Below, piece after piece: positions 7,159 to 40,333 of a DNA stretch of 64,000 bases. The stretch is taken from positions 1,550,378-1,614,377 of the forward strand of contig NZ_JADYWF010000001.1 in NCBI RefSeq assembly GCF_015864945.1. Reading direction: 5' to 3'. Position 1 is the stretch's first letter. Each line of letters opens with the position of its first letter. The notes beneath the pieces are model-generated. The model was not told the DNA's origin. It was given only the letters and a program-made list of their open reading frames with translations, and made no database searches. Origin of the DNA: Salinibacterium sp. NG253. Its GTDB lineage: Bacteria; Actinomycetota; Actinomycetes; Actinomycetales; Microbacteriaceae. A program made the position numbers and the translations under genes.

Positions 7159-7199
7159 CACCCCAGCGTTGAGCGCTCACGGGTTCGCACTGACACGGG

Positions 7200-7214
7200 C
7201 GGGAAGCATTCCCG
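7200..7214 (+). terminator. Short hairpin between protease and inhibitor genes
   Basis: CGGGAA (7200-7205) and TTCCCG (7209-7214) form a perfect six-pair stem with a three-base loop, followed by TTCTCT. It lies 42 bases after the protease stop and could partly terminate or attenuate transcription before the inhibitor gene. The stem is short, so this is tentative. Confidence 0.35.
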
Positions 7215-7269
7215 TTCTCTGAGCGCCCGCACCCTGTTCGCCTGCACGCTGACCGGATAGCATGCACGT

Positions 7270-7674
7270 GTGAAGGTACAGGTGTTGCGAAGCGGTGGCC
7301 TCCTCGGTCGAAGCGTGGAGTGGGATGTCGTTGTCGACGAGCAACCCGACCCCGAGCGGTGGTACGTGCTCATCTCCGAATGCCCCTGGCACGAGCATCC
7401 GGTCGAAAACACGATGCCCGATCGCTACACCTACGAAATTCACTGCGAACCGCACGAAGCGGTCATCCCCGAGCAGCAGCTCGTTGGCCCCTGGCGTGAA
7501 CTCGTTGATCGCGTGCGCGACGCGTCACAGCCGTCACGTCCTGCGCCCGAGCCGCAGCCCGCGCGACAGTCAGCCCCGACGCCCCGATCACATCCCAAAG
7601 CAGAATGCGAAACCAAAGCCGCACCCACCGGAGAGTCAGAACGACTCCCCGACGAGCTCGACGACGAGCGCTAA
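7270..7674 (+). CDS. Emfourin-like protealysin inhibitor
   Basis: A 134-residue cytoplasmic protein. Its N-terminal about 90 residues (VLRSGGLLGRSVEWDVVVDE, then YTYEIHCEP) resemble emfourin, the small protein that inhibits protealysin-type M4 proteases and is usually encoded beside them. The last 40-odd residues are rich in Pro, Glu, Asp and Lys and look disordered; they exceed the usual inhibitor length. The start is GTG at 7270. A TANNNT-like element TAGCAT (7257-7262) ends seven bases upstream, so the gene may have its own promoter and a leaderless mRNA. The pairing suggests control of the upstream protease; direct inhibition is inferred. Confidence 0.75.
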   Translation: MKVQVLRSGGLLGRSVEWDVVVDEQPDPERWYVLISECPWHEHPVENTMPDRYTYEIHCEPHEAVIPEQQLVGPWRELVDRVRDASQPSRPAPEPQPARQSAPTPRSHPKAECETKAAPTGESERLPDELDDER

Positions 7675-7701
7675 GCCCCACGGCCTCCGGCGCGGTTAGC
7701 G

Positions 7702-9669: not shown

Positions 9670-10119
9670 CTAGCCTTCGTAGCGCTCGACGCGCAGCACG
9701 CAGGTGAGCTCGTCTTCGGCGACAGGGATGACGGTCTCCCAGTCGGTCGTCGCGCCGGGCTCCGTTGCGTCGACATCCACCTGGGTGAGAGCACGAGTGT
9801 CATTGGCGCCGTTGAGGAGTGAGACATAGATGCGGTAAGTGGCGCTCGCATCAGTCGAGTTCGTTACCGACCCGTTCACGATCCACTCGTCGCCGTCGCG
9901 CTCGCACTGGTCAACCGTGGAATCAGCAAGAGCACCTTCGAGGTTTTCGCCAGTGCCAGGAGCATCCGTGATGTCAGTTACTCCGGGGGTCTGCTCTGCC
10001 GCTGCCGAGCTTTCGGCGGCGTCAGGCTGTTCCTCAGTGCCGTTGGTGCATCCCGCCAGCGTGAGCGCGAGAATCGCAAAAGGAACAGCGGTAGCGGTCA
10101 GTCGTGTGCGGAGCTTCAT
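9670..10119 (-). CDS. Small secreted lipoprotein coupled to the giant surface gene
   Basis: A 149-residue protein with a lipoprotein signal peptide ending in the lipobox LAGC (Cys24). An acidic, Ser/Ala-rich linker follows, then a compact domain (about 75-149) with DEWIVNGSVTNSTDASATYRI, two cysteines and a strand-rich C-terminus. The pattern resembles small immunoglobulin-like FxLYD domains, but I cannot assign a family firmly. The ATG overlaps the stop of the 6076-residue surface protein (ATGA), so translation is probably coupled. It may act with that protein at the cell surface, for example in folding, anchoring or export; this is inferred from position only. Confidence 0.75.
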   Translation of the reverse strand: MKLRTRLTATAVPFAILALTLAGCTNGTEEQPDAAESSAAAEQTPGVTDITDAPGTGENLEGALADSTVDQCERDGDEWIVNGSVTNSTDASATYRIYVSLLNGANDTRALTQVDVDATEPGATTDWETVIPVAEDELTCVLRVERYEG

Positions 10120-22100: not shown

Positions 22101-25100
22101 GCCGACGCTCGAGAGCGTGACGTTACCGGTGTTCTTGACGACGAACGAGAAGGTGACGGTGTCGCCGAGCTTGTTGGCTCCCGCCGCAACCGCACCGGTC
22201 TTGGAGACGGTGAGCTTGGCAGTCGAGACGAGCGGAACCGTGGCGCTGCTGGTCTTCGGAGTTGCGGCGCCGCCGCTGACACCCGTTCCCGTTGCGGTCG
22301 CGGTGTTCGCGATCGAACCCGCGTCGACATCCGTCTGCTTCACCGTGTAGGTAGCGGTGGCTGTCACTTGAGTGTTCGGTGCCAAGGTTCCGGTGGTGCC
22401 CGACGGCCACGTGCCGTAGGTGATCGAAGAGAGACCCGAGAGCGGGTCAGTGACCGCGGCACCGGTGATCGTGACATTGCCAGTGTTGCGGATGACGAAG
22501 CTGTAGGTAACGACCTCGCCAGCAACCGACGTGGAACCAGCCGGCAGTGTGCCCGACTTCACGAGCGACAGAGTCGGCGCCGGAGTAACGGTAGTGGTGA
22601 CCACGGGGTTGGAGTCATCGTTGACGGGAGTCGCGCCCGGAGCTGTTCCCGCAGCCGACGCGGTGTTGGCGATCGAGCCAGCATCCACATCCGACTGCTT
22701 CACGGTGTAGCTCGCGAGAGCTGTTGCGGTCTGGCCAGGAGCGAGGGTTCCCGCGACGCCGGGCCATGTGACAACGGGAGTGGAGAGACCCACGAGCGAG
22801 TCGGTCAGGGTGACGCCGGTGATGGTCTGGTTTCCCGTGTTCGCGATTGCGATCGAGTACGTGATCGAGTCGCCAACCTTGGCACCGGACGTCACGTTCG
22901 CCGACTTGGTGGTGGTCAGCTGCGGCGCCCCTGTGATCGTCGGAACATTCGCGGTCGACGAGGGCGACGTGATCGTTGCGTTTGTGGGGGTTTTGCCCGA
23001 GACGGTTGCCGTATTCGAAACCGAACCAGCGTCAACATCGGCCTGCTTCACCGTGTACGTCGCCGTTGCGGTCGCGGTTTGGCCGGGGGCGAGTCGTGCA
23101 GCAGTGGCAGTCGGCCAGGTATAAACCGGAGCCGACAGGCCCACGAGCGAGTCAGCAATCGCGACACCGGTCATCGTGACGTTACCGGGGTTCGTGATGC
23201 TGAACGTGAACGTCATCGTGCTGCCAACGCCACCCGTACCCGAAGTGACCGAACCGGTCTTTGTGACGGCGAGCGCACCATTCGGCGCGACCACCAGAGT
23301 GGCGGGCGCTGTGGCGGTAACGGCGGCACCGGTGGGAGGCGTGCCGCGGGTCGTCGCAGTATTCGCGACTGAGCCGGCGTCAACATCCGACTGCTTCAAA
23401 ATATAGGTAGCAGTGGCCGTGACCTGCGTTTGCGGCAGGAGGCGACCGGTTGTTCCGCTCGGCCACGTTCCGAAAGTGACGCCCGAAAGGTCAGGCAGCG
23501 GATCGGTGATGCCGACGCCCGTGAGCGTGACGTTACCGGTGTTGCGCACGACGAAGCTGTAGGTGACGGCATCGCCAGCTGCGCCGGTTGCGCCCGCCGC
23601 CAACACGGCATTCTTAGTAATCGAGATGGTGCGAACCGAGGCGACGGTCGGTGTGGTGATCTGGGGCGAAGGCCCGGTCACGGTGGTGCCGCCGAAGGAG
23701 CCCGTCGAGGTTGCGGTGTTCTTGACCGAGCCGGCATCGACATCGGACTGCACGATTGTGTAGGTCGCCGTGGCAGTTACCTGCGCGTTCGGCGCCAACG
23801 TTCCGGCAACGCCGCCGGGCCATGTGCCGTAGGTCAGCGCCGAAAGTCCCGAGAGCGGATCAGCAATCGAGACGCCCGTGAGCGTGACGTTACCGGTGTT
23901 CTTCGCGATGAACGTGTACGTGATGACGTCGCCAACCGCACCGGTGCCAGCAACACTCGCCGACTTTTGAGTTGTGATGGCGGGCGACGATGCGACGGTC
24001 GGCACAACAGCCTGCGGCGACGTCGCTGTGACCGTTCCGCCCGACGGAGTTGAACCGGATGCCGTTGCCGTGTTCTTCACCGAGCCAGCGTTTACGTCAG
24101 CCTGCTTGATCAGGTAGGTAGCCGTAGCGGTCACCTGAGTGTTGGGAGCGAGCGTGCCGGCCGTGCCGCTCGGCCACGTACCGAAGGTCACAGCGGAGAG
24201 CCCGACGAGGGAGTCGGTGATACCAACACCGGTGGCGGTGACGTTACCGGTGTTGCGCACGACAAACGAGAACGTGACAGTGTCGCCGACGGAACCGTTA
24301 CCGGTCGTGACAGCTCCCGACTTGGAGACTGTGAGCGCGGGGCCTGCCGTGATCGGAACGGTGGCGGGGCTCGTGCTGGTGACTGCAGCGCTGAGCGGTG
24401 GTTTTCCGGTACCGGTGGCGGTGTTCGCGACGGAGCCAGCATCTACGTCGGTCTGCTTGAGAACGTAAGTCGCCGTGGCCGTAACCGACTCACCCGGTTT
24501 CAAGGTTCCGGCGGTTCCCGAAGGCCATGTGCCATAGGTAAGGGCCGAAAGATCGGGCAGAGTGTCGGCGGCCGACACCGAGGTGAGGGTGACGTTGCCC
24601 GAGTTGGTGAGCTTGATCGAGAAGTTCACGGTGTCGCCAGCGCGGCCTGTTGAGCCTGCCGCGAGAGCGCCCGATTTGAGCGTCGTGATGACAGGATTCG
24701 CCGCGACGGTCGGAACCGTGATCTCAGACGAGGGGTTGCTCACGGTGGTGCCGCCGTGCGTACCGCTACCGGTGGCGATGTTCTTCACCGAGCCGGCATC
24801 CACATCGGACTGCTTGATTGTGTAGGTCGCTACGGCGGTGACGGTCTGCCCCGGAGCCAAGACGCCGGTCGCGCCCGGCCACGTGTAGGTCAGCGCCGAA
24901 AGACCCGCGTGCGGGTCAGCGATAGTGACGCCGGAGAGCGTGACGTTTCCGTCATTCTTCGCACTGAACGAGTAGCTGATGACGTCGCCGACCTTGCCGG
25001 TTCCGGCGCCAGCAATCGTTGCTGACTTCGTCGTCGTGATGAGTCGCGTGGGGGTGACCGTAGGCAGCACAGACTGCGCAGAAGGTTGCGTCACCGTGCC

Positions 25101-28100
25101 GCCGGTCGGTGTCTTCGCAGTAGCGGTCGCCGTGTTCGTGACCGAACCGGCATCCACATCGGACTGCTTCACCGTGTAGGTCGCGGTTGCCGTCGCGGTC
25201 TGTCCGGGGGTGAGCACACCGGATGCTCCGGGCCACGTCACCGAAATCGTGCTGAGACCCGAGAGCGGGTCGGCCAGCACAACCTGACTGAGAGTGACGT
25301 TTCCATCGTTCTTGACGCTAAACGTATAGGTGATAACCGAGCCCACCGCGCCGGAACCGGTTGTGTACGCACCCGACTTCGTGACGATCATCTTCGCATC
25401 GGCCGTGATCGGAACCGTCGCGGGCGTCGTGCGCGACACGTCAGCACCGGTCGGAGGGGTGCCCTTTGCGGTCGCACTGTTCACGATGGCGCCAGCATCG
25501 ACATCCGACTGCTTCACCGTGTAGGTGGCCGTTGCCGTGACGGACTGACCGGGAGCGAGAGTGCCGACGGTGCCGGGCCACGTGCCATACGTGATAGCCG
25601 AGAGGCCGGAGAGAGGGTCAGTGATGCCGGCGTTCGTGAGGGTCACGTTGCCCGAGTTCGTGAGAACGAAGGAGTAGTTCACGGTGCTGCCAGCGGTCGA
25701 GCCGCCCGCGAGCGCACCCGACTTGGTCAGAGAGACGGCAGGGGTGCGGGTTTGCAGCGGAACATCTACGCGAGGGGACGCTGCAGTGACGGCAGTTCCA
25801 CTGGGTGATGTTCCCGAGCTGGTGGCCGTGTTGCGCACCAGACCGGCATCAACATTCGCCTGCGTCACGGTGTATGTCGCGGTGGCGGTTACGGTCTGGC
25901 CCGGAGCCAGGGTTCCGGCGGTTCCCGGCCACGAGTAGGTCAGAGCGGAAAGCCCGACGAGCGGGTCAGCGATGGTCACCCCGGTGAGGGTGACATTTCC
26001 GGTGTTCTTGGCACTGAAGTTGTAGGTGACAACGCTGCCGACGCCCTTGGGCTCAGCAACGGTTCCCGACTTCGTGGTGGTGAGCCCGGGGGCTGCAGGC
26101 GCGGTTGCCAAGGTCACTTCATTGCTGACACCCGTGACGGCAACGTTCTTGGGGGTTCGTGCGGTGGAGCTCGCCTGGTTGACGATCTTGCCCGCGTTCA
26201 CATCGGACTGCTTGACTGTGTACGTCGCCGTACCGGTCGCGGTTTGCCCGGGGGTGAGCGTGCCGGAGGTTCCTGGCCACGTCACGGCAATGGCCGAGAG
26301 CCCCGTCAGCGGGTCGGTCAGCGTCACCGAGGTGAGCGTGACGTTACCGGTGTTTTTTACGGAGAACGAATAGTTCACGACGTCGCCGACATTGCCGACT
26401 CCGGCGCCGGCATAGGCGGCCGTCTTCTTCGTTTCGAGAACAGCATTCACCGGGATGGGGGTGGTGCGGTTTGCTGTCGCAACCGGCTTGACGCCGCCAT
26501 CAGCATCCGTTCCGGTGGCGCTCGCGGTATTCGCGATCGAACCGGCATCCACATCAGCCTGCGTGAGGGTGTAGGTCGCCGTTGCTGTTGCCGACGCCCC
26601 CGCGGCGAGCGCGCCAGCGGTTGCTGTTGGCCACGTGTAGGTAAGGGCCGAAAGTCCGGTCATCGGATCGGTAACCGCGACTCCTGTGAGGGGCGAGTCA
26701 CCGTTGTTCTTGATGGTGAACGTGTAATTCAGGGTGTCGCCGGCACGACCGGTTGCTCCACCGGCGAGGGCGCTTGTCTTGGCGAGTGTGAGAGAGGACA
26801 ACAGCACCCGCGTGGAGTCGCTGCCCGTGGCAGGGCTCGCGCCAACAACGGTGCTCGCTGTCGCTGTAGCGGTCGAGTCATAACTGGCCGTCGTCGGCCC
26901 GTTAGCAACACACGTATAGGTATAGGACTCAAGGGGGGCGAGCGTGACGCCCGTCAGCGTTCGCGCACAGTCTGTTTGGTCATCCGCAATCACAATGTTC
27001 TGCAGGATGCCGACACCGGAGTTGGTGACGGTGATAGTGAAGGTCGCTGGTTCTGTTGCCGTGCGCGACTGCTGGTCGAGCGTTCCGTCATAGGTTTTTG
27101 AGACGTTGATTCCCGCGCTGGGCACCGAGAGGATCGCATTCTGCAGCAGGTACGAGTCACCACTGGTGCTCATGCGGAGGTTGACGGAGGTGTCGCCCGA
27201 CTGCACGTTGGGCAGATCGACGGTCGCGACATCCACACTCTGGTTAGTGAACGGGCCAGTGTCGGTGAGCGCCGTGTAGCGAACAGAGCCCTCTCCTCGA
27301 CCGATACCAATGTTATTCGTGTTACCCGCACTGTTGGCTAGTTGGGTGTAACCGCCATTGCCGCGCGAATACTCCGCAATGTCCCCCTGGATGATGCGGT
27401 CACCCTCATAGAGCGAGAAACCAGCGCGGGTTCCCGTGGCGATCGCGCTGAAGCCATTAAACGCGACGGTGAGGGGAGCCTCGGCGGCGGTCATGCGAAC
27501 GTGACCTTCGTAGAAGATGATGCGGTGCGGGGCCGAATTGAGGTTGCTGGGGATGTAGACGCCGTAGTCATAGACGACCGTGAGGGTCCAGCCGGCGTAG
27601 CATCCGGCACCCTGCGGCGCCCACAAGTCACCAGCGGACACCGTGAGCGGGGTTCCCGTGAGCGCTCCGGCAAAAGCTGTGGTGACATCAGCGCTCGCGC
27701 TGTAGTAAATCGCCGAAGTCGTGCCGACCGGGTCTTCGAGCACTGTCGTCGGCGCCACGGTAGTGATGGCGCCGGTGCCGACCTTGAGCGTGGCGGGCGC
27801 AGTGCGGTAACCGGTTGCCGAACCGGCAGGCATCAGCGCGGTCCCCCGTGTGGCGTTGACAGTGGTGCACGCATTGGCGGTCGTACCGGTGAAGACACCA
27901 GTGTTAGCGCTCCAGCTCAGAAAAGCTTTCTTGACGGCTGCGCCAGCAGGAATCGTGATGTTCGCCGAGCTCGAGTTCGTAGTGAATCCCGCGACCGTGT
28001 TCGAATTCTCAAGGTAAAAGTTGTCGTTGGCGGTGTTGTTGTTTCCACCAGATGCGGAGTGCAAATCGGTACAAGAACCGATTTGGGCTGCCGTGTAGAG

Positions 28101-28346
28101 AGGCCGATTACACGCGAGCACGCCGTTGCCGGCCATGAGGAAGTCACCGTTAACGGTGGTTTGGTAGCTCGGCGACGTACCGGCGTTGGTTCCCCACTGC
28201 ACGACGGCAGCTTCGGCGGGCGATGATGGCATGACAGTCAATCCGGCCACGAGAAGACCGAAGGCTACGACGGATGCGACGCCACGCATGAACGCGCTTC
28301 GAGCGCTGCGTTGCGTGCGCTCCACGTTGATGCTGTTGTGCCGCAC
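10116..28346 (-). CDS. Giant repetitive cell-wall-anchored surface protein (6076 residues)
   Basis: The frame is unbroken for 18.2 kb. The start is GTG at 28346 with a strong GGGGGAG ribosome-binding site five to six bases away. Residues 1-47 are a signal peptide (hydrophobic run, then SPAEAA). Residues about 48-412 form a unique domain holding nearly all the cysteines. From residue 413 to about 6036 I count about 48 repeats of roughly 117 residues of the DUF11/DUF7507 type. A typical unit runs from a TKSGAL-like start through NTGNVTL, DPLSGLS, TWPG, LAPGQ/E and QSDVDAGSV. The C-terminus has LSYTG (6039-6043), a membrane helix and the tail RRRQRQENS, a sortase-type anchor with a non-canonical motif. 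It is probably an adhesin or long surface stalk. No sortase gene is in the window. Confidence 0.92.
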   Translation of the reverse strand: MRHNSINVERTQRSARSAFMRGVASVVAFGLLVAGLTVMPSSPAEAAVVQWGTNAGTSPSYQTTVNGDFLMAGNGVLACNRPLYTAAQIGSCTDLHSASGGNNNTANDNFYLENSNTVAGFTTNSSSANITIPAGAAVKKAFLSWSANTGVFTGTTANACTTVNATRGTALMPAGSATGYRTAPATLKVGTGAITTVAPTTVLEDPVGTTSAIYYSASADVTTAFAGALTGTPLTVSAGDLWAPQGAGCYAGWTLTVVYDYGVYIPSNLNSAPHRIIFYEGHVRMTAAEAPLTVAFNGFSAIATGTRAGFSLYEGDRIIQGDIAEYSRGNGGYTQLANSAGNTNNIGIGRGEGSVRYTALTDTGPFTNQSVDVATVDLPNVQSGDTSVNLRMSTSGDSYLLQNAILSVPSAGINVSKTYDGTLDQQSRTATEPATFTITVTNSGVGILQNIVIADDQTDCARTLTGVTLAPLESYTYTCVANGPTTASYDSTATATASTVVGASPATGSDSTRVLLSSLTLAKTSALAGGATGRAGDTLNYTFTIKNNGDSPLTGVAVTDPMTGLSALTYTWPTATAGALAAGASATATATYTLTQADVDAGSIANTASATGTDADGGVKPVATANRTTPIPVNAVLETKKTAAYAGAGVGNVGDVVNYSFSVKNTGNVTLTSVTLTDPLTGLSAIAVTWPGTSGTLTPGQTATGTATYTVKQSDVNAGKIVNQASSTARTPKNVAVTGVSNEVTLATAPAAPGLTTTKSGTVAEPKGVGSVVTYNFSAKNTGNVTLTGVTIADPLVGLSALTYSWPGTAGTLAPGQTVTATATYTVTQANVDAGLVRNTATSSGTSPSGTAVTAASPRVDVPLQTRTPAVSLTKSGALAGGSTAGSTVNYSFVLTNSGNVTLTNAGITDPLSGLSAITYGTWPGTVGTLAPGQSVTATATYTVKQSDVDAGAIVNSATAKGTPPTGADVSRTTPATVPITADAKMIVTKSGAYTTGSGAVGSVITYTFSVKNDGNVTLSQVVLADPLSGLSTISVTWPGASGVLTPGQTATATATYTVKQSDVDAGSVTNTATATAKTPTGGTVTQPSAQSVLPTVTPTRLITTTKSATIAGAGTGKVGDVISYSFSAKNDGNVTLSGVTIADPHAGLSALTYTWPGATGVLAPGQTVTAVATYTIKQSDVDAGSVKNIATGSGTHGGTTVSNPSSEITVPTVAANPVITTLKSGALAAGSTGRAGDTVNFSIKLTNSGNVTLTSVSAADTLPDLSALTYGTWPSGTAGTLKPGESVTATATYVLKQTDVDAGSVANTATGTGKPPLSAAVTSTSPATVPITAGPALTVSKSGAVTTGNGSVGDTVTFSFVVRNTGNVTATGVGITDSLVGLSAVTFGTWPSGTAGTLAPNTQVTATATYLIKQADVNAGSVKNTATASGSTPSGGTVTATSPQAVVPTVASSPAITTQKSASVAGTGAVGDVITYTFIAKNTGNVTLTGVSIADPLSGLSALTYGTWPGGVAGTLAPNAQVTATATYTIVQSDVDAGSVKNTATSTGSFGGTTVTGPSPQITTPTVASVRTISITKNAVLAAGATGAAGDAVTYSFVVRNTGNVTLTGVGITDPLPDLSGVTFGTWPSGTTGRLLPQTQVTATATYILKQSDVDAGSVANTATTRGTPPTGAAVTATAPATLVVAPNGALAVTKTGSVTSGTGGVGSTMTFTFSITNPGNVTMTGVAIADSLVGLSAPVYTWPTATAARLAPGQTATATATYTVKQADVDAGSVSNTATVSGKTPTNATITSPSSTANVPTITGAPQLTTTKSANVTSGAKVGDSITYSIAIANTGNQTITGVTLTDSLVGLSTPVVTWPGVAGTLAPGQTATALASYTVKQSDVDAGSIANTASAAGTAPGATPVNDDSNPVVTTTVTPAPTLSLVKSGTLPAGSTSVAGEVVTYSFVIRNTGNVTITGAAVTDPLSGLSSITYGTWPSGTTGTLAPNTQVTATATYTVKQTDVDAGSIANTATATGTGVSGGAATPKTSSATVPLVSTAKLTVSKTGAVAAGANKLGDTVTFSFVVKNTGNVTLSSVGITDSLADLSAVTFGTWPGGTTGVLAPNAQVTATATYTIKQSDVNAGSVKNTATASGTPPSGPVATATSTQAVVPTVAASPALVTTKSAVVGGTGTGAIGDTITYTFTARNTGNVTLTGVTLTDPLSGLSTPTYVWSGGVSGQLNPNGTVTGTATYTITQADVDAGSVKNIATATGTPPTGAAVTAPSPQLVTPTIASAPTIGVTKSGALAPGAQGVAGDVVTWSLSLTNSGNVTLTSVAVTDSLPGVSAVTYGTWPSTAGTLAPGQSVSATATYVLTQADIDAGAVSNTANGSGTPPRGSPATATAPSTLPLASNSSITLDKTAAVVSPGTGVVGDTIRYTFTAENTGNVTLTNVIIADPLPGLSALTYGTWASGTVGRLAPGQTITATADYVIRQADQNAGVVNNTASVSGKPPAGANATASSAAVATPTATRVPGILTTKTSSVAGTGAVGDVITYTITVRNTGNTTLTSVSASDPLSGLSTLTYGAWPGGVTGTLQPNTQVVATAKYTIKQSDVNTGSVTNTATGQGTSPSAGVITDPSDEVVTPTVAANPVATFAKSGALAPGSVGAAGDTITYTFTTKNTGNVTLTGVAVSDPLADLGAITYTWPGATGVLTPGQTVTATANYTVKQSDVDAGSVSNAATLTATPPSGTPFTETDSETVSITPAPGITVSKVASVGGTGEEGDVITYTMTIRNTGNQTLTVVTLIDNLPGLSTPTFVWPGADNELAPGQTATATATYAIDLDDLNAGEVTNTANVTAQTPGGGPEVTASSGAVVVATGDQRPELTTTKTASVVPSPAAEGTTITYSFLVENTGNVTIENIVLNDPLLGGATPTLSATSLDPDESATATATYTITQADVDAGSVTNTAKAAGATTADPAVPVESPVSSVTTPTEPAAPGISVTKSGTAAQDAGDLIDWTFTVTNTGNVTLSGVTLNDALAGVTPVFGTFPSGISGQLDPGDSVLATADDYVVTQADVDSGSVVNTVTASGTPSRGAVANATTAATVPLAPDAGITIVKSEDATPADRGLGDTVSFTFTVTNTGNVTLSSISIIDQLDGVSAISYDDWDGNPAGSLGPNDVLTATATYVLTQDDIDLGSVDNDSSVLALTPAGVIVDEDSNTVTVTTDATAPSLVTTKAAVLNGTGIVGDTISYTITLLNDGNVTLTDAAITDSLAGLSALVYGEWVSGVAGELAPGESVTATANYTITQADVDAGSVSNIATGDAESARDGAAVTDDSPAAVTPLVTQAAAISATKTGALESGSEGEAGDFIDFSFTITNDGNVTLTGVTLTDPLTDLSAITYTWPTATDGVLAPGETAMAVATYELKQSDVDSGSVVNLATPSGVDPNAVDVDGTEVAATVVVEPDASLSAIKTGELRAGGIGQVGDIIDYSVTATNTGNVTLHDGQLVDPLPGISDPNIVWPDPAQPGVLGVGESVTGTAEYTLTQADIDLGYIENTAEVQALTPNNAVVPATTNTVVIPTVRPAPILTVDKTAVVADNGELGDEIAYAFTITNDGNITIDGITLADPLPGLTDLTVNWDVANTTQTLAPGESVTATATYEITQDDVNAGEVRNTATASGTDAQGTDVTGDSPEVVTEVVAAAPSLSATKSAALAAGATGVAGDTVEYSFTVTNNGNVSLTSVDLIDQLPGLTAVTFGTWPTATDGVLNPGDDVTATATYTLLQSDIDAGSVANSVNAMGVPPTGSAVTQPASATLPLTAAPNFTIVKTGDLGVQLGEVGDVVDYSFTITNSGNVTLSGVLLIDSMPGVSSPVLTWPGDAQVLAPGETATATAEYTITQEDVDAGSVTNTAEALGTTPEGTEYLEFSDPAVNPTVDRTASVTIDKVGSTPDGASLDDLVQYDFTLQNTGNTTLNGVAIDDPLVGLSTIVYSWPGADGELAPGETATATATYAITQADIDRGYVRNSADVDATSPLGAVEDSVGPIDVLTDAAAPAIETTKNGALEAGSTGFAGDIIDYSFTVRNSGNVTLTGVTLTDPLTGLSALTYTWPTATDGVLAPGQSATAVATYELTQADVDAGKVDNTVTAEGTTPAAGTVDDTADETVTITPAPVLTPFKSGTILDGGVGAVGDTVQYTLTVTNDGNVTLYDGQLLDPLPGLSVPVITWPDSEKPGEIPVGESVIGIATYVITQADVDLGYIPNTADMSAQTPQGVVIVEASNEVIVPMVLPSPNITVTKSGAPQGSADLGDIIDYSFEILNSGNVTLDSVTLTDPLPNLSAITITWPTPTSPGVLAPGEIATATADYEITQDDVDAGAVLNIATADGVDPNDTDVTDDSEANTVPTETIRAEVELTKSGVLADPARADEGDTVNWSFELTNSGNVTLTGVEIVDTLPGLSALTYTWPDTAGTLEVGESVTATATSTLTQEQIDAGTVANDATGSGTPPRGDAVSDPATASVVLAPQAGMAVTKDGTVDGAGNAGDTIDYDFGITNTGNVTLTLVDLVDALVGVSSPVFTWPGTEGELQPGETVTATADYTITQDDVDRGSVSNVATASGKPPIGDTITVSTTVTETTVAPAAASLLLTKSSSTGASAGVNDIITYTFEVENTGNVTVDEIVITDPLPGLSTPVVNWPGANGVLAPGEIATATATYAITQADVDAGTVDNTAVADGTSPTDAAVASNTALESTPTDAAAPDILVTKSGALAPGSTGFEGDLVEYEFSVTNTGNQTLTAVSLADPLPGLSALVYSWPTATAGTLVPGAVVTATATHELTQADIDSGSVANVVTGSATPPSGVAFEEDAPATVAIAANGELETTKWGVLRAGGIGQVGDWVDYRLEATNTGNVTLIDGELRDPLPGLSIPTITWPNPAQPGVILPGETVIGEASVQLTQEDIDRGYISNIADVGATDPNDDDVSATTNEVIVTTVQPQPSMTVVKSGEIALTGENGVGDSVDFEFEVRNTGNVTIGSIVVTDPLPGMSTPTVQWPTAVETLAPTETVTATASYLIRQSDVDRGYVENTASATAVPVRGDPISATSNTVEVPTEAPSVVVSVTNVGALTNPGPAVEGDTVTWNYSFTSTSNVTLSGVELSDFLGSLPAGDYTWPGDVGVLAPGDTVTAVRVQTLTQADIDSGAVSSVVTGEGTPPVGAAATATAPATVALAADGLLQVTKSSELAVAGENGPGDTIDYTIVVTNIGNVTLRTVTITDSIDNVSINSIVWPANSGVLAPGESATASATYVLEQDDVDRGYVDNTASVRGVTPGGAAVTATSPVDREPTADAEPSITAEKSGAITSGSGEVGSEITYSFTVTNTGNVTLHLVGVIDPLIDVVPSDLTFPSATGILGPNEQAIGSIVYTITQDDVDRGTVENTATGIGTAPDGTEVNGVSNTVLNPTEDAEPSIVTSHTAALAAGATGVLGDGMDYTFTITNDGNVSLDGVTLSNTIPGLTGFVYTWPDAAAPGVLAPGESVTVTATRLVDQADVDAGEVRNVATGEGNSPTAVAVDADSAVTVVPLIQALSSIDIAKAGEPRDAGNPVVVGSWIDYTFTVENTGETTLSGVTVADPKVGTTAVVYGTWPAADGVLAPGESVTATASYQVTQAEFDAGSASNTANVTSTNPAGDDVIDTSNTVVVPTAAGTPDIGITKTQVLAAGATGNAGDIVEYNFEVTNTGDVTLNGVTIADDQIDLSTLTITWPGTPGVLAPGESATATATYVLTQDDVDAGSISSDASTAGTPAVGAVVTDTATGSTPIVEDPSMTITKSSSFATLAQQGATVNYVIEVVNTGNVTLTAVVISDPKPGVSALTYNWPGTPGELAPGESVTATATYVITQADVDVEQTTNVATVDANAPSGAIAPEEATDVLAIPNVPNIALTISGVLGAGQQGYPGDVVTFTYVATNTGTLPLTNVTIADPRSGLSAMRYGVWPGAIGSLAPGESITATATYVIRESDAGTTLYETATVTSTELNSGDPVVATAQTSLQLPTKALSYTGSDPRGTLATGVGTLLLGLALILLARRRQRQENS
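10239..27110 (-). repeat. Array of about 48 tandem repeats inside the giant gene
   Basis: Units of about 350 bases encode similar beta-domain repeats. Read on the plus strand, near-identical strings such as gtgacgttaccggtgtt recur through the array and encode the NTGNVTL core. The first unit (413 to about 520) is divergent and contains two cysteines; the rest appear cysteine-free. Units 2 to 44 follow a period of three: every third unit begins like SGALAAGSTGxAGD and ends in a TVPL/TVPI-like tail. A GTPPxG-like motif recurs at units 5, 11, 17, 29, 35 and 41 (GTPSRG at 23), a period of six. The order breaks down in the last units. Unit boundaries were assigned by eye. Confidence 0.9.
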
Positions 28347-28578: not shown

Positions 28579-29439
28579 ATGCAGCCGCCTTGGACCTCCG
28601 ATGGACCCGACCTCGTTGTTCACGGCGATAACTTGCCTGTGATCAGCACTTTGCCCGACGAAAGCTTTCGGTTGATCTATATCGACCCCCCGTTCAATAC
28701 GGGCCGAACGCAGCGTCGCCAAGCGCTGACCACGCAACGATCGACCGAAGGAACGCGCGTCGGCTTCGGGGGCAACAATTACGACACGATCAAGGGAGTG
28801 CTCTACTCCTACGACGACACCTTCGCCGATTATTGGGAATTCCTCGAGCCGCGGCTGCAGGAAGCGTGGCGCTTGCTCGACGACCGCGGCACCCTGTACC
28901 TCCATCTCGACTACCGCGAAGTGCACTACGCCAAAGTCGCTCTCGACGCCCTCTTTGGGCGCGAAAGCTTCCTCAACGAGATCATCTGGGCCTACGACTA
29001 CGGCGCCCGTGCGACCAAGAAATGGCCATCGAAGCACGACACGATTCTTGTCTATGTGAAGAACCCCAAGAACTACTACTTCAATAACGAAGAAGTCGAC
29101 CGCGAGCCCTACATGGCGCCCGGTCTGGTCACCGCTGAGAAGGCCGCCCGCGGAAAATTGCCGACGGATGTCTGGTGGCACACCATCGTGTCCCCCACCG
29201 GCAAAGAGAAAACGGGCTATGCCACGCAGAAGCCAGAAGGCATTCTGCGACGCATTGTTCAGGCATCCAGCCAGCCCGGCGATTGGGTACTCGACTTCTT
29301 TGCCGGCAGCGGCACCACCGGCGCTGTCGCTCAAGCGCTCAAACGTCGCGTCGTGCTCGTCGAGCAGAATCCCGACGCGATCGCCATCATCACCAAACGG
29401 CTATCGGACGAGACCGCATTCGCTAACATGAGCGCATGA
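28579..29439 (+). CDS. Solitary site-specific DNA methyltransferase, beta class
   Basis: A 286-residue amino-methyltransferase acting on adenine N6 or cytosine N4. The catalytic motif IV DPPF (36-39) precedes the cofactor-binding motif FFAGSGTTG (240-248). This order defines the beta class, with the target-recognition region between them (about 45-220, with basic Tyr/Lys-rich stretches). No restriction-endonuclease gene lies beside it. It may therefore be an orphan enzyme for epigenetic control or a remnant of a restriction system. The recognition sequence cannot be predicted. The stop overlaps the ATG of the next gene (ATGA), giving a coupled pair. Confidence 0.88.
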   Translation: MQPPWTSDGPDLVVHGDNLPVISTLPDESFRLIYIDPPFNTGRTQRRQALTTQRSTEGTRVGFGGNNYDTIKGVLYSYDDTFADYWEFLEPRLQEAWRLLDDRGTLYLHLDYREVHYAKVALDALFGRESFLNEIIWAYDYGARATKKWPSKHDTILVYVKNPKNYYFNNEEVDREPYMAPGLVTAEKAARGKLPTDVWWHTIVSPTGKEKTGYATQKPEGILRRIVQASSQPGDWVLDFFAGSGTTGAVAQALKRRVVLVEQNPDAIAIITKRLSDETAFANMSA

Positions 29440-33390: not shown

Positions 33391-35553
33391 TTAGCCGGCG
33401 TCAGGCTCCGACCGAGACACCTCGAGGCCTTCGCCGTTCTCGGCGAGCCCCACGAGCACGGTGTCACCATCGCGAATCTCGCCAGCGAGCAACGCCTTGG
33501 CGAGCTTGTCGTCGATCTCGCGCTGCATGAGTCGGCGGAGCGGTCGTGCGCCGTAGATGGGGTCGTAGCCACGCTCCGAAAGCCAGGTGCGAGCATCCGG
33601 GGTCACAGCCAGCTGCAGGCGACGATCGGTGAGGCGCTTGCCCAAACGGTCGATGTCGAGCTCAACGATCTGGCTGAGGTCGTCGGTCGAGAGCGGCTGG
33701 AACACCACGATGTCGTCGAGACGGTTGATGAACTCCGGCTTGAACGACTTGCGCACAAGGTCGTCAACGGCGGCCTTGCGGGCATCCCACGGCAGCTCTT
33801 GGTCAGTGATGAACTGGCTGCCCAAGTTGCTGGTGAGAATCAGGATGACGTTGCGGAAGTCGACAGTGCGGCCCTGGCCATCGGTGAGACGACCATCATC
33901 GAGCACCTGCAGGAGAATGTCGAAGACCTCAGGGTGCGCCTTTTCGACCTCGTCGAGCAGGATCACCGAGTAGGGGCGACGGCGAACAGCCTCGGTCAGC
34001 TGACCGCCCTGTTCGAATCCGATGTAGCCGGGAGGGGCACCGACGAGGCGCGAGACGGAGAACTTCTCTCCGTACTCGCTCATGTCGATGCGCACGAGAG
34101 CTTTCTCGTCGTTGAAGAGGTATTGCGCGAGCGCCTTCGCGAGTTCGGTCTTTCCGACGCCGGTGGGGCCGAGGAAGAGGAACGAGCCGGTGGGGCGGTC
34201 GGGGTCGGAGATTCCGGCCCGCGTGCGGCGAACCGCTTCGGAGACCGCTTGCACGGCTTCCTTTTGACCGATGAGACGCTTGCCGAGTTCCGCTTCGAGG
34301 TGCAAGAGCTTCTCAGTCTCGCCCTCGGTGAGGCGATCGACAGGGATGCCCGTCCACGCGGCCACAACGGCAGCAATGTCTTCTTCGGTCACCTGGTCAT
34401 TGACCATACGGGGGCCGGTTGGCTCGTTGCTTTCGGCGGTGACGAGGGCGCGTTGGATTGATGGGATCGTCTCGTACTCGAGCTTCGACACCTTTTGGTA
34501 ATCGCCGTCACGCATCGCGCGCTCGGAGGCAATACGAGCATCGTTGAGGCGAGTCTTCAGCTCACCGACGTCGGTCAGGCTCGCCTTCTCGAGCTTCCAG
34601 CGCCCTTCCAACTCGTTCAGCAACTTGCTCTGGCTGGCGAGATCTTCGCGGAGTTTCGCGAGTCGCGCCTTCGAGGCCTCGTCTTTCTCCTTCTTGAGTG
34701 CATGCTCTTCGATGCGCAGGCGGTCAACAGCACGCTTGAGCTTGTCGATTTCAACGGGCGAGGAATCGATCTCCATCTTGAGGTGGCTTGCCGCCTCGTC
34801 GATGAGGTCGATCGCCTTATCGGGCAGTTTGCGGCCCGAGATGTAGCGATTGCTGAGTGCTGCGGCGGCCACCAGCGCGGAGTCCGCGATGGTCACCTTG
34901 TGGTGAGCTTCGTAACGCTCCTTGAGGCCACGCAAAATCGCGACGGTGTCTTCGACAGAAGGTTCGCCGACGAATACTTGCTGGAAGCGGCGCTCAAGCG
35001 CGGCATCCTTCTCGATGTATTGGCGATACTCGTCGAGCGTTGTGGCACCGATCAGTCGCAGTTCACCACGGGCCAACATGGGCTTGAGCATGTTGGATGC
35101 CGCGACCGAACCGTCGCCACCGCCAGCGCCCATCAGGGTGTGAAGTTCGTCAATGAACGTGATGACTTGGCCGTCGGAGTCTTTGATCTCTTTCAGCACG
35201 GCCTTGAGGCGCTCTTCGAACTCGCCGCGGTACTTGGCACCGGCGACGAGGGCAGCGAGGTCGAGGGAGATGAGCTGCTTGTCTTTGAGGGAGTCGGCAA
35301 CGTCGCCGGCGATGATGCGCTGAGCGAGGCCTTCAACAACAGCCGTCTTTCCGACACCGGGCTCACCAATGAGTACAGGGTTGTTCTTCGTGCGTCGCGT
35401 CAGCACTTGACTGACACGACGAATTTCGGCGTCACGTCCGATCACGGGGTCGAGCTTGCCACTGCGTGCAATCTCGGTGAGATTTACCCCGTACTTTTCG
35501 AGAGCACTTTTTTGCTCTTCATCGGTACTTGGGGCACCCTGCATGTTCGCCAT
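33391..35553 (-). CDS. clpB: ClpB-type AAA+ disaggregase lacking the N-terminal domain
   Basis: A 720-residue ATP-driven chaperone that threads aggregated proteins through a hexamer, normally with DnaK. It has the first AAA+ module (Walker A GEPGVGKT, 63-70; Walker B with FIDELH), a coiled-coil middle domain (about 265-385) and the second module (GPTGVGKT, 462-469; [10 protein letters not shown]). The C-terminal D2 small domain is intact. The Clp_N repeat domain of about 140 residues found in full-length ClpB is absent: the protein begins only about 30 residues before [10 protein letters not shown]. The ATG at 35553 has a good GGAGGG site, so this looks like a natural short form. A HAIR operator lies just upstream. 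Confidence 0.95.
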
Positions 35554-35571: not shown

Positions 35572-35592
35572 CTTGAGTTGAGATGACTCAAC
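35572..35592. promoter_or_regulatory. HAIR (HspR-binding) operator
   Basis: CTTGAGT, seven bases, then ACTCAAC: this matches the HspR inverted repeat CTTGAGT-N7-ACTCAAG in 13 of 14 positions. It lies 18 bases upstream of the clpB ATG. It overlaps the probable clpB transcription start, since a TATAAA -10 element is at 35598-35593 on the minus strand. HspR repression relieved by heat is the expected control. The site is also 80 bases upstream of the divergent Hsp90-like gene and might affect it. Confidence 0.85.
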
Positions 35593-35672: not shown

Positions 35673-37535
35673 GTGAACGCCGATTCCCGAGACGATCTCC
35701 ACTCCTTTCAAGTGAACCTCACGGGAGTCGTTGACCTCCTGAGCAAGCACATCTACTCCAGCCCGCGGGTCTATCTGCGCGAGCTTCTGCAGAACGGGCG
35801 CGACGCCCTGGCGGCGCGGGTTGAGCTCGAAGGACAAGACCCGAGCCGCGGCATCCGCATCACTCCCCTCAGCGAGCACAACGACACATTCCAGTTTCAG
35901 GATGACGGCATCGGGCTCACCGCCGACGAAATGACCGAGCTGCTCTCGACCGTCGGGCGCTCCTCGAAACGCGACATCTTCGATCTGCCCCGCAGCGACT
36001 ACCTTGGGCAGTTCGGCATCGGATTATTGAGCTGCTTCATGGTGGCCGACCAGATTGTGATCCAGTCACGCTCCGCTCGCGGCTCAGCCCCAGTGGAGTG
36101 GATTGGCAATAGCGACGGCACGTTCAGCGTGCGCGAGCTGGAGGGCGACCTGCCCATCGGCACCACCGTCTCGCTCAAGCCGCGCTTTGATCAGCACGAC
36201 TTGCTCAGCACTTCGACGGTGCTCGCCCTGGCTAAGACCTTCGCCGAGTTTCTGCCGGTGGGGGTTCGCGTTGATCTCCCCGGCGGCGGCGGCAGCGAGA
36301 CCGTCACGCACGATGCCCCGTTCCTCGATGCACACACGGCTACGGCATCCGAGCTGCTGACCTACGGTCGCGAGTTGCTCGGCGTAGATCCCTTTGCCGC
36401 TATTCCGTTGAGTGTGCCCGGCACCAACACCACAGGCGTCGCCTATGTGCTGCCCAGTTCGCCGCCGCCCGGAGCCCGCCAAGCGAACCGCGTTTACCTC
36501 GGCCGCATGCTGCTGAGCGAAAACGTGGATGCACTGCTGCCCGATTGGGCGTTCTTTGTGCGCGTCGTGCTGAACAGCACCTCGCTCACCCCGACGGCAA
36601 GCCGCGAATCGCTCGTGGACGACGACATCCTCGAGCACACGAGGGCGGCAATCGGCACGACGCTGCGGCAGTGGGTGCTCGAAATGGCGGCGCGGCATCC
36701 GGCCCAGCTCAACGACTTTGTGCAGATTCATTCACTCGCCCTCAAGTCGCTCGTGATCCACGACGAAGAACTCGCGAAGTTCATCACTCCGTGGCTGAGC
36801 GTCGAAACCACACTCGGGCGCATGACGATCGAGAGCCTTACGCGGGATCACACGCAGTTGCGCTACGCCGAAACGGTGGATGAATTTCGGCAGATCGCAA
36901 GCATCGCGAGCCCCGACCGGCCGGTGATCAACGGTGGCTATATTTACGACACCGAGATCGCCCGCCTGCTCCCCACGCTCGTCGACGGTCTCACCGTCGA
37001 CCGCGTGAGCGTGCTCGACGAACTCGACTTTCTCGAGGTGCCACCGCTTGACGCACGCAGCCTTGTCGCGAAGCTCGAAGACCGCGCCAGCGCTGTGCTC
37101 GCGGATGCCGGCTGCGCTGTGATTGTGCGCGGCGTTCCCGCCACCGACGTCACGGGCCTCTACCTCGCCGACCCCGAAGTCTTGCGCTCCATCGACCGTC
37201 GGGCGGCCCGCGAAATCAGTCGCCCCGGGCTGTGGAAAGACGTGCTCGGCAAAATGGATGCGTTTGCCGAGGAGCGACTTGCCAGCGACGGCACCAGCAA
37301 ATCCCTCGCTCGCCTGTGCCTCAACTGGAACAACCCCGTCGTCGTCACCCTCTCCACCCTGAGTGATGACGCCGTCTTCTCCCGCACCATCGAACTGCTC
37401 TACGTTCAAGCCCTGCTCACCAGCCAACGCCCCCTCAGCGTGCGCGACCGCGCCATGATGACCAATTCCATGTCAGATCTGATCGCCATGAGTGTCGCAC
37501 TCGGTGATTCCCTCCCAGAAAGTTCTTCCCTATGA
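35673..37535 (+). CDS. Divergent Hsp90-family (HtpG-like) protein
   Basis: A 620-residue protein with a clear N-terminal GHKL ATPase fold: the Glu37/Asn41 helix in ELLQNGRDAL, Asp77 in DDGIGL, and the glycine loop GQFGIGLLSCF (112-122). The middle region (about 215-400) follows Hsp90 order, including NSTSLTPTASRESLVDDD. The C-terminal part diverges strongly from HtpG and lacks the eukaryotic MEEVD tail. It probably acts as an ATP-dependent chaperone in the cytoplasm. The start is GTG at 35673 with a modest GATGAGAG site. The stop overlaps the ATG of the TPR-like gene (ATGA), and the HAIR-containing promoter gap of clpB is immediately upstream, suggesting heat-shock linkage. Confidence 0.85.
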   Translation: MNADSRDDLHSFQVNLTGVVDLLSKHIYSSPRVYLRELLQNGRDALAARVELEGQDPSRGIRITPLSEHNDTFQFQDDGIGLTADEMTELLSTVGRSSKRDIFDLPRSDYLGQFGIGLLSCFMVADQIVIQSRSARGSAPVEWIGNSDGTFSVRELEGDLPIGTTVSLKPRFDQHDLLSTSTVLALAKTFAEFLPVGVRVDLPGGGGSETVTHDAPFLDAHTATASELLTYGRELLGVDPFAAIPLSVPGTNTTGVAYVLPSSPPPGARQANRVYLGRMLLSENVDALLPDWAFFVRVVLNSTSLTPTASRESLVDDDILEHTRAAIGTTLRQWVLEMAARHPAQLNDFVQIHSLALKSLVIHDEELAKFITPWLSVETTLGRMTIESLTRDHTQLRYAETVDEFRQIASIASPDRPVINGGYIYDTEIARLLPTLVDGLTVDRVSVLDELDFLEVPPLDARSLVAKLEDRASAVLADAGCAVIVRGVPATDVTGLYLADPEVLRSIDRRAAREISRPGLWKDVLGKMDAFAEERLASDGTSKSLARLCLNWNNPVVVTLSTLSDDAVFSRTIELLYVQALLTSQRPLSVRDRAMMTNSMSDLIAMSVALGDSLPESSSL

Positions 37536-40333
37536 GCGTCGCCCGCATCACCGAACTGTTCAGCGAGATCGACACGATGGCCTTCGGCCCCGAGGAACGA
37601 GCTCGCGTCGATGAGGCGATTGCGCTCGCGGTCGAACTCGGCGACGAAGAGTTGGAGTACCGAGCGCGCATTCGGCTGACGGCATCCGCCAATCAGCTTG
37701 GCGACACCGAAGCTCTGCTCTCCTCATTCGCGTGGTGCCTCGCCAAGCACGACGCTGACCCCGTGCGCTTTCCCGACGACGTGGTCGAAGGCGGTGCCGG
37801 GCTCATGTGGCAGTTCAAGTGGATCGCCACGACCCTCGCGAGCTCACCCATCTTCGGCACCGACGACATCTCCGGCGCTCTCGCCGACATGGAGAGCCAC
37901 TACCGCGACGCCGGAATCGGCCAGAGCGGCGTGCTGACCTCCCAGTTCGCCACGGCCTGGCGTCTCGGCCAGCTCGACCGCGCCGAAGAATTGCGCGCCC
38001 AACTCGCCGTGACGCCCCGCGACGATTACAGCCACTGTGACGCCTGTGTGCGCAGCGATGCCAGCGGCTTCCTCACAGAAACCGGGCGCGACGCCGAAGC
38101 CATCGTGCTCTTCGACGAACTCATCGAAGGCGGCTACAGCTGCGGCGATGAGCCAGAAGCCGCCCTCTCGCGCGCCCTGCTCCCCTACCTGCGCGCCGGC
38201 CGCCTCGATGACGCTCGCGCCGCCCACTTTCGCAGCTACAACCTCGCGCGCGACAACGCCGACAACCTCAGCATCATCGCCAATCACTTCATCTTCTGCG
38301 CCGTCACCGGCAATGAGGCCCGCGGCCTGGCCATGCTCGAACGCCACCTCTCGTGGTTTGTGCATGACCAGCTCAACGCCGACGGCCAGTTTTCCGGTCT
38401 CGTTGCGGCCGGCGTGCTGCTCGACGCAGTGACCGCCGCCGGCTTCGGCGAGCAAGTTGTTCGCGGCGCCGAAAACAACGAACTCACGGCGCTCTTCGGA
38501 GAGCACGACGGCACCTGGACCGCCGAAGAACTTGCCACCGCCACGTGGGCTGCCGCGCGCCGGATTGGCGACCAGTTCGACGAACGCGCCGACAATAACT
38601 ACCGCGCCACGCGCATCCAGAAGGCCAAGAATCTCGCTAACGAGAACTACCCCCTCAGCCTCACGAGTGAAACTCTTGCCGCCCCCACTCCCGCCGACGC
38701 CGAACCGACGGATGCCGCCGGCTGGCTGCTGCGAGCAGAAGAGCTGACCGCAATGGGTTGGCTTCCCACCGCGTTGCCCGCCGCGCGTAAGGCTGCGGAA
38801 TTGGCAACGGGCACGGAGCGCACGGCTGCCCTCAGCACGTTGGTTGCTGGACTGGTGGCTACCGGCGATCTTGCTGCAGCCGAGGCTGCTCTCGCCGAAC
38901 GCATCCCGGCTCTCCGCGAGCACGGCAACGAGGCGCAAGCGTCGCTCGAAGAGTTGCTCGGCCTTTCTCTGTTTGGTCGCGCCGAGCAAGACGATTTCGA
39001 CAAGCTCAGCGTCGCTGTTGGCGTCTCGGAGGAGTTAGCTCCCGCCCAGATCGCCGACATCGAGCTCTCACTGCTAAGCGTGCTGCTGCGCGGCGAGGAG
39101 CCCGATCTCGAGGCTGTGACGAAGCTTGCGGCGAGTGCGCTCGTGCACGCCGAGGCTGGCGAGATGCCCCTGCTGCGCGCCCACGCGCTGCGGTATCTTT
39201 CCGACCTGGCGGCCACCGCTGGCGACACTGATCGCGCACTCGCGCACCTTGATGATCTGCTGGGGGCGACATCCAACCGCGGTGTTTTGGCCCACGCTCA
39301 CGCGCTTCGTGCCCGCATTTTGGGCAGTGGCGGCCAGTTCGCTGCGGGTGCCGCCAGCGCGGACGCGGCCGCTGAATGCGCCAATGCAATCGATGCTGCT
39401 GGCCCGCTGCACGACACCACCATTCTGGCTGGACGCCTCTATGACGAAGCCGAACAGTTTACGGATGCCGCTGGTCGCTTCCGTCTCGGAATCCGCTACG
39501 CCGAACGCCTCGAGATCGAGACCGTAGGGGCACGCTACGCCCTCGGCCGAGCGCTCGTGCGCGGCGGAGAGTCAGCGGAAGCCATCGAGCTTTTGCTCTC
39601 GCTGTTCGAAGAAGAGACTGCCGCGGAAGCCGCTCCTGGCAGCCGCGGCGAAACTCTGTTTTGGCTCGGGCACGGTTTCGCTGACTCTGGTGAACCGGGT
39701 TCTGCTGTTGGCACCTGGGAGACCGCGACGGAGCTGTACCTCGAGTCCGGAGACACCCAGAGCGCAGCACGCACTCTTGCTGACAGCGCGAGTCTGCACG
39801 CGCAACACGACGACCACGAGACGGCCGCAACATTGCTCGAGAATGCTGTGACGCATGCTCGCGCCACACCCGACGACCTCAACCTGCTCGTGCGCGTGCT
39901 GCACCAGTCGGGGCGCGCTCAAGCCGAAGCGGGCAACGCCGCCGGCCTTGAGGCACTGGATGAGGTGCTGGCGTTGGCCGCCGAACACAACGCCGACTGG
40001 TTGCATGCCGACGTGACCGACTCGAAGGCGCGCGCTCTCGCGAGCCTCGGAAAGCCGAAGGAGTCGGTGGCACTGGCACTCACGGCAGCGGATGAATACC
40101 GCGCGGCGGGAGATCCTGTTGCGGGCGCGAACTGCGAACGCTTCGTTGCCAACGTCTTAGCCGGCGAGGGCCGCCATGACGAAGCTGTGGCGGTGCTGCA
40201 ATCAGTGATGGAGCAGGCCGCCGACCACGAACGACTGCGTCAGATCACCGCGTTCGACCTGGCCGAAAGCCTCGACAAGCTCGGACGGACTTCGGATGCT
40301 GCTGCCGCTCGGGCGATTGCGGAGAGCGCATAG
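37532..40333 (+). CDS. Large TPR-like helical-repeat protein coupled to the Hsp90-like gene
   Basis: A 933-residue soluble protein made almost entirely of alpha-helical repeats rich in Ala, Glu, Leu and Asp. TPR-like units are clearest after about 390 (WLLRAEELTAMGWLPTALPA) and near the end (ALASLGKPKESVALALTAADEYRAAGD). The N-terminal 380 residues are a more divergent helical region with one HCDAC cysteine pair (169-172). There is no signal peptide or membrane segment. Its ATG overlaps the Hsp90-like stop, so the two are made together. In eukaryotes TPR proteins are Hsp90 partners, which suggests a co-chaperone or client adaptor here, but the bacterial protein lacks the MEEVD ligand, so the mode would differ. 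Confidence 0.8.
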   Translation: MSVARITELFSEIDTMAFGPEERARVDEAIALAVELGDEELEYRARIRLTASANQLGDTEALLSSFAWCLAKHDADPVRFPDDVVEGGAGLMWQFKWIATTLASSPIFGTDDISGALADMESHYRDAGIGQSGVLTSQFATAWRLGQLDRAEELRAQLAVTPRDDYSHCDACVRSDASGFLTETGRDAEAIVLFDELIEGGYSCGDEPEAALSRALLPYLRAGRLDDARAAHFRSYNLARDNADNLSIIANHFIFCAVTGNEARGLAMLERHLSWFVHDQLNADGQFSGLVAAGVLLDAVTAAGFGEQVVRGAENNELTALFGEHDGTWTAEELATATWAAARRIGDQFDERADNNYRATRIQKAKNLANENYPLSLTSETLAAPTPADAEPTDAAGWLLRAEELTAMGWLPTALPAARKAAELATGTERTAALSTLVAGLVATGDLAAAEAALAERIPALREHGNEAQASLEELLGLSLFGRAEQDDFDKLSVAVGVSEELAPAQIADIELSLLSVLLRGEEPDLEAVTKLAASALVHAEAGEMPLLRAHALRYLSDLAATAGDTDRALAHLDDLLGATSNRGVLAHAHALRARILGSGGQFAAGAASADAAAECANAIDAAGPLHDTTILAGRLYDEAEQFTDAAGRFRLGIRYAERLEIETVGARYALGRALVRGGESAEAIELLLSLFEEETAAEAAPGSRGETLFWLGHGFADSGEPGSAVGTWETATELYLESGDTQSAARTLADSASLHAQHDDHETAATLLENAVTHARATPDDLNLLVRVLHQSGRAQAEAGNAAGLEALDEVLALAAEHNADWLHADVTDSKARALASLGKPKESVALALTAADEYRAAGDPVAGANCERFVANVLAGEGRHDEAVAVLQSVMEQAADHERLRQITAFDLAESLDKLGRTSDAAAARAIAESA

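Follow-up and report, generated by a model that had tools for sequence, protein, structure and literature searches.

A divergent bacterial Hsp90 family is usually encoded beside a helical-repeat protein with a conserved, unnamed N-terminal domain

In eukaryotes, Hsp90 is served by a set of TPR co-chaperones that includes Hop/Sti1, FKBP51/52, PP5 and CHIP. For bacteria, the available parts of two papers state that no obligate Hsp90 co-chaperones have been identified (PMC3708813) and that "cochaperones are absent" (PMC6520445). A second, divergent branch of bacterial Hsp90 is already on record in the sections at hand (PMC1525184, PMC3708813). One of these studies divided HtpG into Groups A, B and C, assigned Firmicutes and Actinobacteria to A and C, and listed two copies of different groups in S. 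coelicolor, with 638 and 615 residues (PMC1525184); the other left hsp90B and hsp90C out of its co-evolution analysis throughout (PMC3708813). The portions of these two papers available to us describe no conserved partner for the Group C/hsp90C branch. Judging from the copy number, length and phyla given in those portions, this branch probably corresponds to the NCBIfam family NF010683. Here we report that Hsp90 proteins of the little-studied NF010683 branch are usually encoded next to one particular unnamed helical-repeat gene, which suggests a built-in helper, contrary to the statement that bacterial Hsp90s have none.

The pair was found in a stretch of 64,000 nucleotides of Salinibacterium sp. 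NG253 (the window). The first gene (35673..37535, forward strand) begins with GTG, ends with a TGA at 37533-37535, and encodes an Hsp90-like ATPase of 620 residues; the second (37532..40333, forward strand) encodes a partner protein of 933 residues, and its ATG start codon (37532-37534) shares the four bases ATGA (37532..37535) with the end of the Hsp90 gene, an overlap that is a candidate for translational coupling. An earlier note on this DNA had reported that the stop of the Hsp90-like gene overlaps the start of the 933-residue gene, and both open reading frames were found where it had placed them; its wording "fused in one operon" suits the genes, which overlap, but not the proteins, which are separate, and no fusion of the two genes was detected in 110 loci. 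Among the paired loci, a candidate start codon of the partner overlaps with or directly adjoins the Hsp90 stop in 76 of 106, and a candidate in-frame start is placed at offset -1, -4 or -8 relative to where this stop ends in 72 of 106, both being raw counts with no chance control.

The window Hsp90 is a member of NF010683 (PRK14083, "HSP90 family protein"), with a score of 674.7 bits versus a cut-off of 455, whereas its score with the canonical HtpG family NF003555, to which E. coli HtpG belongs, is 158.8 bits, well under the cut-off of 371; the Pfam HSP90 profile gave 29.6 bits (cut-off 24.4). This protein is the sole PF00183 match in the 2.97-Mb genome (E<=0.001), and the same search found no canonical HtpG there. 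Nevertheless, the three-domain fold and the ATP-site residues are the same as in canonical HtpG. In an alignment of 18 sequences (A1), the ATP-site residues E37, N41, D77, G79, G81, G112, G115, G117 and R311 are invariant, and a phmmer alignment places E37 and N41 at the same motif position as in solved Hsp90s. These residues (Glu, Asn, Asp, the glycine motif and the middle-domain Arg) presumably have the catalytic roles that we assign to them from Hsp90 in general. The AlphaFold2 monomer model (59 sequences, pLDDT 89.8) shows a complete Hsp90 fold with N, M and C domains, and the matches listed by Foldseek include near full-length ones to eukaryotic Hsp90, TRAP1, GRP94 and a model of E. coli HtpG, with a TM of about 0.6 and a best E of 1.7e-34. 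With its ATP-site signature intact, the protein is predicted to belong to the ATP-driven chaperone family.

The C-terminal tails of these Hsp90s are variable in the 18 aligned sequences. That of the window ends in LPESSSL and, as had been remarked before, lacks the MEEVD tail; an EEVD ending was found in 0 of 110 C-termini. Given that this tail is missing, the eukaryotic docking mode cannot apply. The bacterial pair resembles the eukaryotic systems in that a TPR protein is paired with an Hsp90, but differs from them in this tail, in that the partner has no family-level match beyond TPR repeats, and in that what stays constant is an N-terminal domain without a name, encoded by a gene adjacent to that of the Hsp90.

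The 933-residue protein had been described as a helical-repeat protein, and the AlphaFold2 model (66 sequences, pLDDT 95.1) bears this out: it consists almost entirely of helices, whose long succession forms a superhelix, and its PDB matches include, among those listed, the TPR proteins Ski3, Ctr9, OGT and LGN, at 10-16% identity. The likeness to these scaffolds lies in the TPR superhelix, with a target-normalised TM of up to 0.80 for LGN; however, the query-normalised TM of about 0.16-0.33 and the low identity speak for a general repeat fold with no functional link. Pfam TPR matches in the 933-residue protein are all sub-threshold, and none of them falls inside residues 1-370; some relatives have matches just above the cut-off. 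From its modelled superhelix, the partner is predicted to be a TPR repeat protein.

Alignments revealed that the partner is made of two parts, a conserved N-terminal core of approximately 370 residues (37532..38641), delimited with alignments A2 and A3 and an HMM search, and a remaining, faster-diverging TPR arm of approximately 540 residues (about residues 390-933; 38699..40330). The core has no name in Pfam or NCBIfam. In A3, which comprises the window protein and 65 rows from species-genome loci (66 in total), K96, G146, C169, C172, C204, P208, A228, F255, D350 and R352 are invariant; in A2 (27 rows, including Bacillota), invariance is limited to P208, A228 and R352, with conservation of at least 90% for K96, the three cysteines (C169, C172 and C204) and D350. 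The three conserved cysteines are possibly a metal or redox site. The mean pairwise identity is 0.403 for the core versus 0.259 for the arm in the 62 full-length rows (four core-only rows were dropped), and the core was the more conserved part in 1889 of 1891 protein pairs; the most distant cores have about 19-30% identity with that of the window. The earlier note missed that the conserved portion is this unnamed N-terminal domain and not the TPR array; it also missed the membership of the Hsp90 in a separate family that is already known.

The TPR arm is present in most actinobacterial partners and absent from those of Listeria, Paenibacillus (353 residues), Corallococcus (363-364 residues) and a Phycisphaerales genome (356 residues), which consist of the core only. 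In Listeria the partner occurs as two tandem core-only copies of 324 and 322 residues; these copies, as well as the partner of Streptomyces globosus, are annotated as "hypothetical protein". NCBIfam gives no match at 1e-5 for the core-only proteins from Listeria and Corallococcus; in Pfam, the Listeria protein shows a single TPR_8 repeat just above the cut-off (26.1 versus 25.7), and the Corallococcus protein has no match. The Listeria Hsp90 of the pair matches lmo0942 by its place beside fri, which lmo0942 adjoins according to the section of PMC3534079 at hand. From the gene numbering, the first Listeria partner would be lmo0941, which the available text of PMC6901971 calls hypothetical and of unknown function, and for which it notes signatures of selection.

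To follow the core, an HMM was built from 15 seeds of 14 loci and run on a panel of 117 loci, 113 of which contain an Hsp90-like gene. A core gene is located directly downstream of the Hsp90 gene, on the same strand and within 600 bases, in 110 of these 113 loci, and in 96 of 99 when the 14 seed loci are left out. The panel contains at least three duplicates among the 113 (L094, L073 and L106, the last from the same species as L102), which were excluded for the counts of neighbours and of C-termini and overlaps. The scan of species genomes gave the core downstream in 80 of 80 loci, chosen by their Hsp90 and not by the partner, these being the best 80 of 560 confirmed and hence biased to close relatives. 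In two loci from a single genome that has two copies (L083 and L084), a weakly related partner is directly upstream (E 7e-12 and 1e-8); together with the planctomycete locus L252, the reversed gene order with adjacency kept is seen in three loci of two genomes. In the actinobacterial locus L081, the gene downstream encodes instead a small TPR protein that hhalign does not relate to the core (0.2%). The core match of L085 is weak but was counted as a pair (E 3e-10; hhalign 94.7%). One Hsp90 accompanied by two partner copies was found in five loci (L091, L102, L141, L158 and L247). Core proteins with no Hsp90 in the fetched stretch were also found in eight loci (L086, L087, L101, L105, L201, L202, L233 and L234), of which the first four had entered the panel through a partner match; by eye, no common new neighbour was noticed around these eight genes.

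The earlier note had left room for the pair being confined to its own lineage; it is in fact present in many actinobacterial genera, in Bacillota, in Myxococcota and in some Planctomycetota, and since it recurs in four phyla, the arrangement is not due to chance. The counts that follow are not phylogenetically independent, as many loci are related. In a sample of 150 genomes of the Microbacteriaceae, the family of the window, NF010683 was detected in 17 and relatives of the 933-residue partner in 17, with 15 genomes in common, where the genes are adjacent. The NF010683 genomes with no direct partner match, G418 (two copies) and G444, contain divergent adjacent partners (L083, L084 and L085), so that all 17 have an adjacent partner when divergent versions are included; G352 and G371 have the partner and no NF010683 protein. 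Among 346 genomes of Actinomycetota, in which up to five best core candidates were scored per genome, NF010683 was above the cut-off in 11 and the core was present in 12 (E<=1e-10), with 10 in common; the exceptions were G325 (L081), with the Hsp90 and no core, and G171 and G204, with the core only.

On the other hand, the core domain does not follow canonical HtpG. A set of 34 actinobacterial genomes with a sub-cut-off match (E<=1e-30) and no NF010683 was treated as HtpG-only, and the 19 loci taken from it (L013-L031) all match NF003555. The core was absent (E<=1e-10) from 33 of the 34 genomes, and in the lone exception, G204, the core gene is 1.6 Mb away from HtpG.

In Myxococcota, the phylum of Corallococcus, NF010683 and the core were each found in 65 of 193 genomes, 64 of them in common; in all 64 pairs the core is downstream on the same strand, with a gap of 32-92 bases between the matches. 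The locus of the 65th Hsp90 is truncated at a contig end, and G543 contains a core gene and no NF010683 protein. Fisher tests gave p-values of 3.9e-49, 1.2e-16 and 1.1e-16, in which relatedness is ignored. In Planctomycetota, the phylum of the Phycisphaerales genome, NF010683 was above the cut-off in seven of 199 genomes, and the core is adjacent in four of these: G493 (L161), G734 (two copies), G731 and G766, where it is upstream. The other three (G851, G705 and G794) have no adjacent core, and neither has a fragment below the cut-off (G878, 440 bits); it follows that this Hsp90 can exist without the core. In Bacillota, the pair occurs in three records, two from Listeria and one from Paenibacillus.

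A FastTree phylogeny of 164 Hsp90s separated 145 proteins, i.e., NF010683 members and their sub-threshold kin, from 19 HtpG-type proteins with a support of 0.998; the window Hsp90 is outside the latter. The planctomycete protein of L252, whose partner is upstream, was placed at the base of the NF010683 group with a weak support of 0.523, and the members that lack the core form scattered small groups. This topology suggests an early origin of the partner within the NF010683 clade, followed by a few losses or replacements, the deep order not being firm.

Six distant Hsp90s (272-301 bits) were fetched from the scans of Myxococcota and Planctomycetota. In two myxococcal loci, the gene after a second, distant Hsp90 (L257:7828-10128, and L258) encodes a related long protein that is TPR-like and contains a C-x2-C motif; that of L257 has 766 residues, TPR matches just below the cut-offs, and an hhalign probability of 22.6% against the core. 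The Planctomycetota locus L254 encodes, on the reverse strand (5212-7833), an Hsp90 that carries a TIR domain at its C-terminus (PF13676, 71.6 bits). Three genes of 383 residues follow, and the single one scanned proved to encode a canonical TPR protein; this arrangement looks like an immune-type module. The partners of L081 and L254 are not supported as relatives of the core (hhalign 0.2% and 3.2%), and no recognisable TPR partner was seen at L255, where the neighbours were judged by eye only, or at L256. Taken together, these sequences indicate that the Hsp90-TPR neighbourhood may have arisen repeatedly. Plasmid proteins from Pseudanabaena, Pseudomonas and Xanthomonas (H7, H9, H10 and H11) show similarity to roughly the first 400 Hsp90 residues and no further, at 27-30% identity, and are named "ATP-binding protein" where annotated.

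We think it somewhat more probable than not that both genes encode one chaperone machine, formed by an NF010683 Hsp90 clamp and a dedicated partner acting as an adaptor or co-chaperone. In such a machine, the ATP-driven clamp would work with its own protein partner, the conserved N-terminal core with its near-invariant three-cysteine motif would be the portion that works with Hsp90, and the variable C-terminal TPR superhelix would recruit clients or other factors. A conserved core beside Hsp90, a changeable arm, two gene orders and two partners per Hsp90 all fit an adaptor or co-chaperone; the partner would then bind directly in a non-EEVD mode, with a putative adaptor or co-chaperone function and possibly a stress or client role. 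Against one machine, three Planctomycetota Hsp90s lack an adjacent core, core genes occur with no nearby Hsp90, and L081 carries an unrelated TPR protein instead; joint inheritance and transfer would also keep a gene pair together. If the genes were linked just by such hitch-hiking, as an operon relic with no joint work, the relatedness of many loci, the lack of phylogenetic independence of the counts and the exact p-values that ignore it would be easily accommodated. Nevertheless, adjacency is kept in four phyla, with cores down to about 19-30% identity and in two gene orders, and it survives where other neighbours have changed, so that we regard this explanation as very improbable.

The partner could also be a dedicated client, that is, a helical-repeat protein that does the cellular job itself and depends on a dedicated Hsp90 for its folding or continued activity. 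The genes of a chaperone and of an obligate client would be expected side by side just as much, the eight loci where the partner has no nearby Hsp90 are what an independent effector might show, and two partner copies per Hsp90 do occur. However, a conserved core with a varying arm fits a docking part better than a fold in need of help, and three Planctomycetota Hsp90s above the cut-off have no adjacent core; a dedicated client fits less well than an adaptor or co-chaperone, and we consider it unlikely. A mobile conflict or defence system, with the Hsp90-like ATPase and the TPR protein as its sensors or effectors, would agree with the patchy presence in the family of the window (17 of 150 genomes) and with the distant L254 Hsp90, with its TIR domain and TPR genes. 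Yet the PADLOC matches of the Hsp90 are weak and limited to the N-terminal ATPase part (27.3 bits at most; TmtA, REase_II), the partner has none at E<=0.1, there is no conserved effector or nuclease neighbour, and the presence of the pair in 64 of 65 Myxococcota genomes with an NF010683 Hsp90 fits a resident function; a defence role therefore seems quite improbable to us.

The earlier suggestion of an independent bacterial Hsp90-TPR partnership stands as regards the conserved pairing and the absence of the core next to canonical HtpG, while a physical partnership and the term co-chaperone are what we infer from it. A broader version of the one-machine reading, which we put forward tentatively and at somewhat less than even chances, is that an ancient Hsp90 branch has a dedicated co-chaperone family of its own, separate from the eukaryotic EEVD-TPR system, in which a constant three-cysteine core would dock and exchangeable TPR arms (from none to about 600 residues) would set client specificity; other TPR partners (L081, L254, L257/L258) would have been recruited separately, so that the pairing arose more than once. 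With a two-gene module conserved in four phyla, bacterial Hsp90 would have a strong partner candidate. If this is true, the origin of Hsp90-TPR cooperation could be tested in ordinary laboratory bacteria, and a domain that lacks a name yet occurs in many actinobacteria and myxobacteria could be assigned a function. The available parts of PMC11687934 and PMC13418734 do not mention such a partner of a bacterial Hsp90, and in a search of open-licence papers, as far as their accessible text goes, no report on the Hsp90-core pair was found; a Shewanella co-chaperone was looked for and not found in this search either.

As for the surroundings, the largest cluster of neighbours around the pair covers 19 of 110 loci, and none of the 14 largest clusters is a family common beyond a lineage (both from crude gene calls); the pair is the only constant seen in the neighbourhood. 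In the window, a HAIR-like inverted repeat (35572-35592) is located in the spacer that separates the clpB-like gene from the divergently oriented Hsp90-like gene, with one mismatch to what we take to be the consensus of the HspR operator (HAIR). For this element, 0.09 matches are expected in the window, and nine of 100 shuffles had one. With up to three mismatches, a match upstream of the Hsp90 gene is present in two of 112 loci where 0.45 are expected, namely in the window and in its sister L088, and HspR or heat-shock control of the whole Hsp90 family was accordingly rejected; given this restriction, the element probably serves the clpB-like gene. The latter (33391-35553, reverse strand) encodes a ClpB-like disaggregase without the ClpB N domain, with a profile match that starts at position 148 of 853 and reaches 1157.2 bits, just below the cut-off of 1232.1; L088 has a gene of the same length and with a similar start at this position. 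Elsewhere in the window, a single open reading frame of 6076 residues (10116-28346, reverse strand) contains dozens of DUF7507/DUF11 repeats and is perhaps a giant surface protein, and a DNA methylase is encoded at 28579-29439 on the forward strand (Pfam N6_N4_Mtase, 164.4 bits; PADLOC MTase_II, 509.7 bits).
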